A stretch of 42,645 nt of DNA from a virus, in IMG/VR virus record IMGVR_UViG_3300021406_000020, positions 1-42,645 of that record; one strand, given 5' to 3'. Positions within the stretch are counted from its first letter, which is position 1, and each line of letters begins with the position of its first letter. Positions 11,985-14,760 of this stretch are shown in pieces. Below the pieces are notes generated by a model. That model saw only the letters and a list, made by a program, of their open reading frames with translations, searched no databases and was not told where the DNA came from. Position numbers and translations under genes: made by a program.

Positions 11985-12021
11985 AGTATGCCTCAATTCG
12001 TCAATCCTTATTTGTGTGTAC
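11985..12021 (-). promoter_or_regulatory. GTACACACA-box promoter of the portal gene
   Basis: GTACACACA at 12021-12013, 22-bp spacer, CATACT at 11990-11985. The ATG is at 11976, so the leader would be about 2 nt; an overlapping TACTAT at 11988-11983 would place +1 exactly on the ATG. The box lies in the last codons of the 83-aa gene. Confidence 0.65.
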
Positions 12022-12259
12022 AGTCCTTATATTCTTTGATATATCGTTCGCATCCTTTCAAGGGATGTTTGTCGTGCCATTCATGGGACAATAAACATCC
12101 GCAGAATCCGCAATGTCCCGCTTCTTTCATGATGACTTCGATGGATATACTTCGTAGTTTAAATGCTTCCGTCTTAATGTATTTCCGTGGCTCGCCACGT
12201 TTTTTGATGCGATACTCCCGTGCTTTCTCTGTAAGATACTTTCGCCGTTGTTCGGTCAT
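12008..12259 (-). CDS. Small Cys-rich protein after terminase, 83 aa
   Basis: Start at the second ATG (12259, MTEQRRKYL), which overlaps the terminase stop as ATGA. Basic N-terminal helix, then CGFCGCLL and CERY...C, possibly one zinc site. HNH-like His residues (HEWHDKHP) are present, but a complete HNH motif is not clear. The portal promoter box lies in its final codons. It might be a small nuclease or a packaging accessory; this is uncertain. Confidence 0.55.
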   Translation of the reverse strand: MTEQRRKYLTEKAREYRIKKRGEPRKYIKTEAFKLRSISIEVIMKEAGHCGFCGCLLSHEWHDKHPLKGCERYIKEYKDCTHK

Positions 12260-14760
12260 TTCGGCCACATAAGTTGTACGCCCCCATCCGACACGATTTG
12301 GGCTTTCCTAATGCCGTCCATTGCACTTCTCGCCCCGAAGATTTTCACCTGACTGCCCGCAAATCGTTGCATCCCAATATCTGAATACAAGAGCGCATGG
12401 CAATTCGATACCAAAATACCCTCTGCGAAATACTCCGACTCATTACTTACTGCTATATTGATAACGTCCTTCTTTTCGATATTTTCGTGCAAACCAACGA
12501 TTTGAACATCGAGGGGAACAAAACTTACCGCCTGCCTTCCATTGTGTAGTTTTTTTAATATTGCACTCAATACAGTTAAAAGTTTTGGGTTCAACCAACT
12601 TAAAGGCTTTGATGGCATTAGCGCGTAAATGCCTCTTACCTTTGGTAGTTGTGAGCCATACATGGGATTTCTTTCTAATACGCCCCAAATGTTCCACGTT
12701 TGCTGTTCTAAACTTCTCATTCTTGAGTCTTTCGACAACGTGATGGCTCTGATGAAAAGCTCGCGGTTCACACAAAAGGTTTGTAATCTTGTTATTGAGC
12801 GGATTACCGTCTTTATGATGAATGACAAACCCCTCAGGAATTGCTCCATGAGTATCAATCCATATTTGCTGATGAAGCCTCGGTTGCCCATGTGCGCGAA
12901 GGGTTCCATTTGGAACGAAGTAAACTTTTGATTCGCGGCGGGATGAATTTGGATACCGTCTATAAGTAATTCCTTTGTATATAATGACTTCGCTTTTTGC
13001 CATGTGTATAGTTTAGCATGAGGACTGGTACTGTCAAGTCTGGTTTTCCCTTCCTCGGTAAAAATGGGATGGTCAGGAGTCGCCGTAAAACTAGAACCGT
13101 TAGAAAAATAAGCCGTGATAACCCTTACCTGACTTTGAGTTTTGCCTGCATGATACACCATATTGGTTCCTTTGCGGGTGAAAACCATATCGCCTATCTT
13201 GATGTCTTCGATATTTCTTTCCCCAGAAACCGTCAACACCTTAGTTCCGGCCACAAAACAGAAATGGTCTGGGCCGTTCCGTTTCCACACGTACTCTGCA
13301 CCCAAAAGACTTCGGTCATCCTTGCCAGGCTTTGCATCCACCGTGATTTCTTCTCGATACAAATACCCGAAGTGTGAGGCGAACTCCTCCCATTCCTCTT
13401 TTGTGCCATTCAGTCTATACCTCCCGATGTCCCGCATTTGTTCAACCATCAAGGTCATTTGTCTGTTCCGGTCAACTCTTACCGTGCCGTACTCATCATC
13501 CTCGCCCCATTCAACATAGTCATTTGATTTCCTATCCTTACGGTAGAACACTAAAAACACTCTGCCTGGATACTTTGCTTGGAGCTTTCTAACCCCAATC
13601 AAATCACCGCCCTGATCGAACACCGCGACCGACTTCTCGAACGTGTTGAGAAAACTCGCTATCTTGTCGTACGGGTCTTTGGTCGCCGTGATTTCAGTCT
13701 CATGGCCGTACAAGAATACCCCTTGATTATTTCGAAGCACATAATGAATCCCATGTCCTGTATCACATCCGATAATGACTCTGTCTTTCGGATTGTAGTA
13801 ATCATTCACCTCATCCACGCAATTCATCAAGACCGTCTTCGGCTCGATTCTGTCCTCGCTTCCGATATACGGAAGCCCTAAGATGTAGTTGTAGAAGTAT
13901 TGCTTGTCTTTTTGCGGGTCGTTAAACGCTTTGATGATGTCTTTTGCGCTCTTGTTGTAAAGCTGTAATTGTGAGATATGATAGCCGCTAAAATCTCCGC
14001 TTGCCGTGGGTTTCCAAATACCGTTAATACGTTCGGCGTCGGAAAGTCCGATGCCACAAGATTTGCATACATACTCCTGAGTTTCTTGATTGATAGACTC
14101 CGGCCACGTAAGGATTTGTTCATGATTGTTTTTGCATTTAATAAACCATTCTTTTTTATCCGATTGCTCCCAGTATACACTAACTCCGTGTCCTTGTAAA
14201 GACGGATGGCTGAAATACCAACGCATACCACCATCTTCTTGGGCCTGCAGACGATTCTCATATTGGGTGATGACCTGTCCGTCGCTTGCGTCAACTTCAT
14301 CATGAATATTCAACCCCGACGGGATCATCATAGCCTGCTTCGCACTGAATGTACCACGATAAAAAATCATTGCCTCGCCCACTTGTTTCTGTTCAACCGT
14401 ATCGTGGTCTTTTACAAGCTCCATTAACACGGGATTTTGGGCGATGATACGATTGATTGAACCACCAACCATGTCTTGAATATCAGACTGGGTAGGCAAC
14501 GTATATATGATTTGTCGCCGTTGCCTTGAAGCGATGAAGAAACTTTTCAAGGTAAACATGACCGTAGCTCCTATCTGCGGCGGCTTAAGAATCGCCTGTA
14601 GAGGGCTTAAATCATTGTAAATATCTATGAGGAACTTTCGCTTTTTGAACTCAATAGGGAAACCAACCTCGTTTTTTATCTCGTTCTGCTCTACCCATAA
14701 TGAGGGATATGCTTGGGCAGCCTCAATCTTTTGTTCAAGCGTGAGTATTTCTTTGGGCAT
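12256..14760 (-). CDS. terL: Large terminase subunit (lambda gpA-like) with an intein, 834 aa precursor
   Basis: Packaging motor. ATPase part: KPPQIGATV near residue 58, a deviant Walker A with lysine at the start as in lambda gpA, and Walker B NIHDEVDA near 150. CKSCG near 230 and GYHISQL fit the GpA family. Nuclease part: CDTGHG, VFDQGGD and PDHF/CHALLY. An intein occupies residues 501-786, exactly inside the last nuclease motif. Removal joins ...GPDHF to CHALLYSD and gives 548 aa. ATG 14760 overlaps the small terminase by 26 bp. A separate HNH gene lies in another frame inside the intein. Confidence 0.9.
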   Translation of the reverse strand: MPKEILTLEQKIEAAQAYPSLWVEQNEIKNEVGFPIEFKKRKFLIDIYNDLSPLQAILKPPQIGATVMFTLKSFFIASRQRRQIIYTLPTQSDIQDMVGGSINRIIAQNPVLMELVKDHDTVEQKQVGEAMIFYRGTFSAKQAMMIPSGLNIHDEVDASDGQVITQYENRLQAQEDGGMRWYFSHPSLQGHGVSVYWEQSDKKEWFIKCKNNHEQILTWPESINQETQEYVCKSCGIGLSDAERINGIWKPTASGDFSGYHISQLQLYNKSAKDIIKAFNDPQKDKQYFYNYILGLPYIGSEDRIEPKTVLMNCVDEVNDYYNPKDRVIIGCDTGHGIHYVLRNNQGVFLYGHETEITATKDPYDKIASFLNTFEKSVAVFDQGGDLIGVRKLQAKYPGRVFLVFYRKDRKSNDYVEWGEDDEYGTVRVDRNRQMTLMVEQMRDIGRYRLNGTKEEWEEFASHFGYLYREEITVDAKPGKDDRSLLGAEYVWKRNGPDHFCFVAGTKVLTVSGERNIEDIKIGDMVFTRKGTNMVYHAGKTQSQVRVITAYFSNGSSFTATPDHPIFTEEGKTRLDSTSPHAKLYTWQKAKSLYTKELLIDGIQIHPAANQKFTSFQMEPFAHMGNRGFISKYGLILMEQFLRGLSFIIKTVIRSITRLQTFCVNRELFIRAITLSKDSRMRSLEQQTWNIWGVLERNPMYGSQLPKVRGIYALMPSKPLSWLNPKLLTVLSAILKKLHNGRQAVSFVPLDVQIVGLHENIEKKDVINIAVSNESEYFAEGILVSNCHALLYSDIGMQRFAGSQVKIFGARSAMDGIRKAQIVSDGGVQLMWPK
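12443..13003 (-). CDS. HNH endonuclease nested out of frame inside the terminase intein, 186 aa
   Basis: This gene is on the same strand as terL but in another frame and lies wholly within the intein DNA. The N-terminal half holds an HNH_3 motif: GFVIHHKDGNPLNNKITNL, then RAFHQSHH. The C-terminus has CIECNIKK and CSPRCS zinc-type pairs. Its own promoter (TTGACA, 16 bp, TAAACT with extended TG) puts +1 on its ATG. It probably spreads the intein by cutting intein-less terL. Both frames stay open for 560 bp, so each constrains the other. Confidence 0.88.
   Translation of the reverse strand: MAKSEVIIYKGITYRRYPNSSRRESKVYFVPNGTLRAHGQPRLHQQIWIDTHGAIPEGFVIHHKDGNPLNNKITNLLCEPRAFHQSHHVVERLKNEKFRTANVEHLGRIRKKSHVWLTTTKGKRHLRANAIKAFKLVEPKTFNCIECNIKKTTQWKAGGKFCSPRCSNRWFARKYRKEGRYQYSSK
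13010..13037 (-). promoter_or_regulatory. Promoter of the nested HNH gene
   Basis: TTGACA at 13037-13032, 16-bp spacer ending ATGC, TAAACT at 13015-13010, then 6 bp to ATG 13003. It is embedded in intein-coding DNA and shares ATGCTAAACT with the plus-strand promoter at 36.97 kb. Confidence 0.68.

Follow-up and report, generated by a model that had tools for sequence, protein, structure and literature searches.

Can one stretch of viral DNA serve both as the linker of a self-splicing protein and as a complete endonuclease gene in another reading frame? Canonical inteins carry an in-frame endonuclease of the LAGLIDADG type, or an HNH as in the GyrB inteins, and the prior view has been that the homing endonuclease either lies in frame within the intein or has been lost. 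The question is raised by the terminase large subunit gene (terL) of the window, by which we mean the whole 42,645-nucleotide stretch of viral DNA that was analysed (IMG/VR record IMGVR_UViG_3300021406_000020).

We consider it very likely that this gene contains a TerL splicing intein and that a separately expressed HNH homing endonuclease gene overprints its linker, although splicing, HNH synthesis, cleavage and homing are all inferred. The precursor would be translated straight through in the TerL frame, after which the two Hint halves (residues ~1-87 and ~247-286) would fold together, excise the intein and join DHF to CHALLY. The HNH protein would not derive from the TerL polypeptide; it would be made from its own ATG on a leaderless mRNA, transcribed from a sigma70-like promoter situated within intein codons. 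The nuclease would then cut intein-free terL at the insertion site or close to it, with the entire intein copied in during repair. Both open reading frames, the constraint acting on the two of them, the conserved promoter geometry, the exact empty sites and the discordance between intein and extein are direct observations.

The precursor and its intein are arranged as follows.

12256..14760, minus strand: TerL precursor ORF, 834 aa, a gpA-type terminase large subunit with the intein read through in frame
12403..13260, minus strand: intein, 286 codons, Cys1 to Asn286, ending Ser-Asn and followed by Cys
12256..12402, minus strand: C-extein of TerL, 48 aa plus stop, with Cys as the +1 residue
13006..13260, minus strand: N-terminal Hint half with blocks A and B, outside the HNH overlap (from the Hint_2 match, AlphaFold and Foldseek)
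12403..12468, minus strand: C-terminal splicing blocks F and G (DVINIAVSNESEYFAEGILVSN)

The precursor matches Pfam GpA_ATPase (2.2e-18) and PHROG 675, terminase large subunit (3.8e-73), and the intein, which matches Pfam Hint_2 (E=2.3e-7), is inserted in the TerL nuclease domain between ...RNGPDHF and CHALLYSD.... In the window terL is a single 834-aa ORF, with the intein halves not on separate ORFs. Block A is CFVAGTKVLTVSG, the intein starting with CFVAGTKV; block B is TATPDH at 13086-13069, block F is DVINIAV and block G is YFAEGILVSN followed by C. Cys1, the T-x-x-H of block B (T61 and H64) and the C-terminal Asn286, where the window reads LVSN before the C, are invariant in an alignment of 30 inteins. 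Two residues that are usual in inteins without being universal, the block F His (SEYF vs HEYF) and the penultimate His (VSN), are absent from the intein of the window; one or both are also missing from several relatives in the 30-intein alignment, and their absence could make splicing slower. Sequences from phage records were left out of alignments A4 and A5.

Within this intein, between blocks B and F, a second ORF runs on the same strand in the -1 frame relative to TerL (an offset of 2 nt).

12443..13003, minus strand: putative HNH homing endonuclease gene, 186 aa, ATG to TAA, overprinted on the intein linker
12776..12829, minus strand: HNH active-site motif FVIHHKDGNPLNNKITNL; the intein frame of the same bases reads ...SFIIKTVIRSITRLQ...
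12506..12574, minus strand: C-terminal zinc-ribbon-like cysteines C144, C147, C162 and C166 of the HNH protein

The encoded protein matches Pfam HNH_3 (PF13392; 4.6e-13) and PHROG 15471, HNH (6.1e-18), and its residues H62, H63, D65, N70, N71, N75, H84 and H88 are invariant across 23 relatives. A Pfam search of the window's intein frame gave no LAGLIDADG or HNH match. The TerL and HNH frames are both open across the 558 coding nt of the HNH gene, and the block F strand of the intein doubles as the last HNH codons. All of this agrees with an earlier note made from the bare sequence, which had put the intein at 12403-13260 with blocks A, B, F and G in the terL frame (exactly where we find them), a full 186-aa HNH protein inside it on the same strand in another frame (here 13003-12443), and both frames open for about 560 bp. 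In most lineages, as in the window (12443-12468, minus strand), the HNH stop falls at or near the block F strand; a Tyr TAT followed by an Asn codon, as in VYN, reads TAA in the HNH frame, so that block F can itself supply the stop.

Predicted structures distinguish the two products of the overlap. AlphaFold places the Hint halves of the intein-frame model (1-87 and 247-286) at about pLDDT 90 or more and most of the linker below pLDDT 60, and with this model Foldseek returned the gp41-1 intein 6qaz as its top match (TM 0.86 by target length), the others including DnaB, RecA and further inteins and almost all being inteins or Hint domains. The HNH model is confident throughout (pLDDT 93.1), and in comparison with PDB folds it gave no significant match and resembled HNH or zinc-ribbon folds only in part. 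Given the low confidence of the linker and the high confidence of the HNH model, the overprinted linker looks, as far as such models can tell, like tolerated filler, with the HNH frame coding the folded protein.

We then asked how far the arrangement extends. A tblastn search of named phages with the HNH frame led to the terL genes of Acinetobacter phage Highwayman, Tetrasphaera phage TJE1 and Rhodobacteraceae phage LS06, and in these, together with a faecal phage contig, the HNH lies inside the intein with the same frame offset as in the window. The nuclease has been missed in the annotation of terL in Highwayman and TJE1. Megablast found no match that would represent a near-identical phage. 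For a census, IMG/VR and GTDB contigs were scanned with a conserved HNH peptide as bait and the hits classified by HMM, which yields a sample; a locus was scored as nested where N-intein, HNH and C-intein were present and one open TerL frame covered the HNH. We obtained at least 117 nested loci, representing at least 88 lineages at 80% HNH identity, and inspection added several more beyond this threshold-based set. Thus, what the earlier note had implied to be a singular oddity is a recurrent arrangement.

The host ORFs of the nested loci are terminases of several families (Terminase_3, Terminase_6N and GpA), and with few exceptions the intein junctions fall in the nuclease motif of TerL, around DH..DA.RY. 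The HNH begins ~230-330 nt past the first intein base and stops no more than ~76 nt from the intein end, again with few exceptions. Among the matches listed, the HNH is in phase -1 to TerL in 117 of 117 scored nested loci, and an in-frame fusion of this HNH family to the TerL intein occurs in none of the 117. Among the outcomes that would have refuted the original proposal were relatives with the terL frame broken through the HNH region and relatives with the HNH frame interrupted. For the first, the matches listed contain 117 open frames against three HNH relatives with both splicing halves and no single open TerL frame, two of which (L008 and L184) resemble split-intein 'fractured' terL and the third of which (L182) has ambiguous bases; for the second, the HNH is open at full length in every nested lineage. 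As a separate observation, the TerL ORFs of L142, L128 and L095 contain two inteins, an N-terminal one with LAGLIDADG_3 in frame and another, in the nuclease domain, with the HNH out of frame; a second intein is also present in L023.

How might a gene in this position be expressed? Immediately upstream of the HNH start, within the intein, are two promoter-like elements.

13032..13037, minus strand: predicted -35 hexamer TTGACA, also found in L010, L016, L019 and others
13010..13015, minus strand: predicted -10 hexamer TAAACT with a TG extension (TGcTAAACT), 6 nt before the HNH ATG

The order is TTGACA, a 16-nt spacer, TAAACT, 6 nt and the ATG at 13003; the two hexamers and the 6-nt gap are exactly those that had first been remarked on. 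TAAACT agrees with the consensus at only 4 of 6 positions; the promoter as a whole scores higher than every control ATG or GTG of the same gene. The -10 hexamer also holds a TAA (13015-13013) that closes the HNH frame upstream of the start. We predict that the HNH start in the window lies on a leaderless mRNA from a sigma70-like promoter, synthesis of the protein being inferred. Taking the best -10 hexamer within 34 nt of the HNH start in each of 85 lineages, we found a gap of exactly 6 nt between its end and the start codon in 27, with the runner-up gap accounting for 6, and this sharp peak across lineages supports the leaderless-promoter idea. Promoter scores exceed all ATG/GTG controls in their own gene in 30 of the 85, and an in-frame stop precedes the HNH start at a median distance of 12 nt (within 30 nt in 65/85). 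Shine-Dalgarno matches of at least 5 are found at 0/34 promoter-type loci vs 23/51 other loci. The latter figure indicates that translation from a long mRNA occurs in the HNH family, which seems to have two options, a leaderless promoter (the case in the window) and a Shine-Dalgarno sequence on a long mRNA. A promoter of its own would, by inference, uncouple the endonuclease from late terL transcription.

The alternative that survives best concerns only this last step. It accepts both frames as functional and treats the promoter-like element as a by-product of the protein motif LD-L-YGD-I, the HNH being made from terL mRNA by coupling or re-initiation. The -35 and -10 elements do overlie conserved intein codons (LD-x-L-x-YGD-I), and the 23 of 51 promoter-less loci with a Shine-Dalgarno sequence favour such a route. 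However, because the elements overlie these codons, the same amino acids recoded synonymously provide a control, and such recoding rarely gives as good a promoter (P=0.006 for the window, 0.0015 for L010 and 0.0015 for L016; combined p=3e-15, the lineages not being fully independent), while control ATGs show no enrichment. The fixed 6-nt gap and the lack of Shine-Dalgarno matches of 5 or more at promoter-type loci also speak against a by-product. We regard this explanation as unlikely, though it keeps some standing.

A separately expressed, overprinted HNH gene also implies a claim about the overlap, for which dual-coding statistics had been suggested as a check. Expected stop counts took the HNH protein and the codon usage of its gene as given. 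Over the 88 lineages, the intein frame contains 0 stops in 17,650 HNH codons vs 224 expected and the third frame 1,612 vs 1,724 expected; in free-standing HNHs, the frame matching the intein's contains 71 vs 71.5 expected. Synonymous shuffling of the HNH codons of the window gives a mean of 3.8 intein-frame stops vs 0 seen (P=0.004), and the 20 stops of its third frame equal the expectation from the same shuffling. A frame open by mere chance was considered as well, and is ruled out by 0 stops against 3.8 in the window and against 224 in the 88 lineages. The nested loci were chosen by their open covering frame, and the zero-stop count is therefore partly definitional. However, only three loci with both intein halves failed this test, so that the dual-frame conclusion is independent of locus selection, and a pairwise divergence test is free of the weakness altogether.

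Between the window and L010, synonymous differences amount to 191/367 outside the overlap, as against 28/136 in the HNH frame (p about 1e-10) and 16/117 in the intein frame (p=3e-14) within it, and comparisons with L209, L011 and L012 show the same lowered synonymous divergence. Third positions of the N-intein diverge as fast as those of the extein, which rules out recent gene conversion as the cause. As measured by sequence divergence and stop counts, then, both reading frames are under selection, and the suggested check comes out in favour of dual coding. This evidence also bears on the notion that the HNH frame is the decaying relic of a formerly in-frame endonuclease, frameshifted and open by chance. 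Inteins routinely gain and lose in-frame endonucleases, but here the HNH is full-length with all catalytic residues in every nested lineage, 78% of its amino acids are conserved between the window and L010, the intein-frame synonymous sites are conserved because of the HNH, and no in-frame fusion of the family appears among the matches listed. We give the relic very little credence.

The constant phase of the overprinted gene can be understood from codon composition. Each HNH gene is expected to produce ~2.5 stops in its +1 frame (the intein's) vs ~20 in the other. A stop in the intein frame requires a hydrophobic HNH codon NTA or NTG followed by A or G, and such cases are few; a stop in the other frame requires a T-ending codon before a Lys, Asn, Ser, Arg, Asp or Glu codon, and these are abundant. 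The stop-poor frame is thus the cheap phase, and no frameshift mechanism is necessary to account for its constancy. Programmed -1 ribosomal frameshifting, by which the HNH would be fused to the N-intein, would likewise explain a -1 phase in all 117 scored loci among the matches listed, but we rank it slightly below even the relic. A stop precedes the HNH start by a median of 12 nt (in the window, TAA at 13015-13013) and leaves scant room to shift, the HNH starts have a leaderless promoter or a Shine-Dalgarno sequence, and the stop-poor frame is the simpler explanation, to which the opposite-phase cases L187, L195 and L254 may be added. Least probable of all is an HNH carried by a self-splicing RNA intron with the open TerL frame incidental, since although group I introns commonly carry HNH genes, Rfam intron families gave no match up to E=5, the element is bounded by protein-splicing residues and has a Hint fold, and at least 117 loci keep an open TerL frame.

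An absolute phase rule was entertained and rejected on account of the same three loci, each of which has an HNH in the opposite phase with 0 stops vs 7-9 expected. L187 (1470-3536; a Planctomycetota MAG) is a TerL intein with the same HNH family, where the gene starts earlier and overlaps block B, and upstream of it are both a Shine-Dalgarno sequence and a TTGACA/TACAAT pair. L195 (285-4211; a MAG contig) and L254 (1399-4767; an IMG/VR contig) are DNA polymerase I inteins with an HNH_3 nested in the opposite phase. The N-terminus of their HNH differs from that of the terL-nested family, and going by sequence they apparently represent an independent origin in another host gene. With the L195 HNH as query, nothing was found in viral contigs, and in phages only ordinary HNH genes.

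If the window's intein and its overprinted nuclease form one mobile element, how have they moved? Intein-free terL alleles with a contiguous site were found in 47 relatives, and the presence of the intein among relatives is patchy. The nearest empty sites, for example in L202 and L204, read KRNGPDHF directly followed by CHALLYSDIGMQRF and are ~90% identical to the window there, the nucleotide sequence of this type of site being that around GACCATTTT followed by TGTCA; alignment of the spliced terL with intein-free relatives, as the earlier note had advised, thus gave an exact match. L209 and L010 share 86% identity in the N-intein and 81% in the HNH but 69% in the N-extein, and the window and L209 share 83% in the extein but 68% in the intein and 74% in the HNH. 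This discordance indicates that intein and HNH moved as one.

In Acinetobacter phage BP10 (L002:2498-3139) a free-standing HNH of this family, which shares 51% identity with the nested Highwayman protein, lies upstream of terS, and terL is intein-free. Nested and free-standing forms interleave in the HNH tree with at least 7 changes, the deep branches being weak. The suggestion that a mini-intein had been invaded by a free-standing endonuclease gene, with terL preserved by overprinting, accordingly holds in so far as the intein carries an HNH of the free-standing type and terL is kept by overprinting, whereas invasion from the free state is plausible and, with so weak a tree, not shown.

Fractured genes, in which a free-standing endonuclease lies between the halves of a split intein, were reportedly described by Dassa et al. 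in 2009. They resemble the window in that the endonuclease is expressed separately between intein halves, and differ in that the window's intein is one unsplit polypeptide. Two terL loci appear to show the fractured layout: in Lactobacillus phage CL2 (L008:455-2771) and in a spirochaete MAG (L184:1427-3712) the N-intein and the C-intein of terL are on separate ORFs, with an HNH of the same family between them. The terL of CL2 is annotated as an ordinary complete gene. With a separately expressed nuclease, the linker frame can break and mobility be kept, so that the nested form is possibly ancestral to the split one; that nested inteins are precursors of split inteins, or the reverse, is a hypothesis.

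With canonical inteins the window shares the Hint domain, an endonuclease placed between blocks B and F, empty alleles and insertion at a conserved active-site motif; it departs from them in that the endonuclease is a gene in the other frame with its own start and not a domain of the intein polypeptide. Its best fold match is to gp41-1 and other mini-inteins (PDB 6qaz), but true mini-inteins have a short linker or none, whereas the linker of ~160 aa in the window is the HNH gene in the other frame. Out-of-frame HNH insertions are known from mycobacteriophage methylases, in ShiLan (PMC11855218) and Applejack (PMC12613952), and in the ShiLan insertion, which presumably remains part of the methylase, no splicing domain could be detected (PMC11855218). 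ShiLan and the window have in common an out-of-frame HNH, an insertion that leaves the frame of the host gene open, a homing-like distribution and proposed leaderless translation. In the window, unlike ShiLan, the HNH lies inside a complete Hint intein, terL is the host gene, zinc-ribbon cysteines occur in the HNH family and the promoter has a fixed geometry. In the literature we found no true intein containing an endonuclease that is out of frame and has its own start, though an earlier mention cannot be excluded.

One DNA stretch would here provide two unrelated proteins and a promoter, namely the linker of a self-splicing protein and a separately expressed selfish nuclease. Recurrence in ~90 lineages suggests that many annotated terminase 'mini-inteins' are probably complete mobile elements, their nuclease overlooked because automatic annotation reads one frame, and this looks like a widespread, largely unrecognised route for inteins to remain mobile. 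Whether overprinted endonucleases with leaderless promoters are a standard and widespread means of intein mobility, having arisen more than once (in terL, for the most part in one phase, and in DNA polymerase I in the opposite one) and forming a bridge to split inteins, is a broader proposition that we advance only tentatively and would not yet bet on. The loci nevertheless amount to a large natural data set on overprinting with a clear phase rule (the stop-poor frame), and offer a setting in which leaderless expression of a selfish gene can be tested, as well as a candidate path to split inteins.

Next to this locus in the window, an 86-aa ORF with a GTG start (12008-12268, minus strand) overlaps the 3' end of terL by 13 nt; it contains a CGFCGC cysteine cluster and a HEWHDKH histidine stretch, and no identity is assigned to it.
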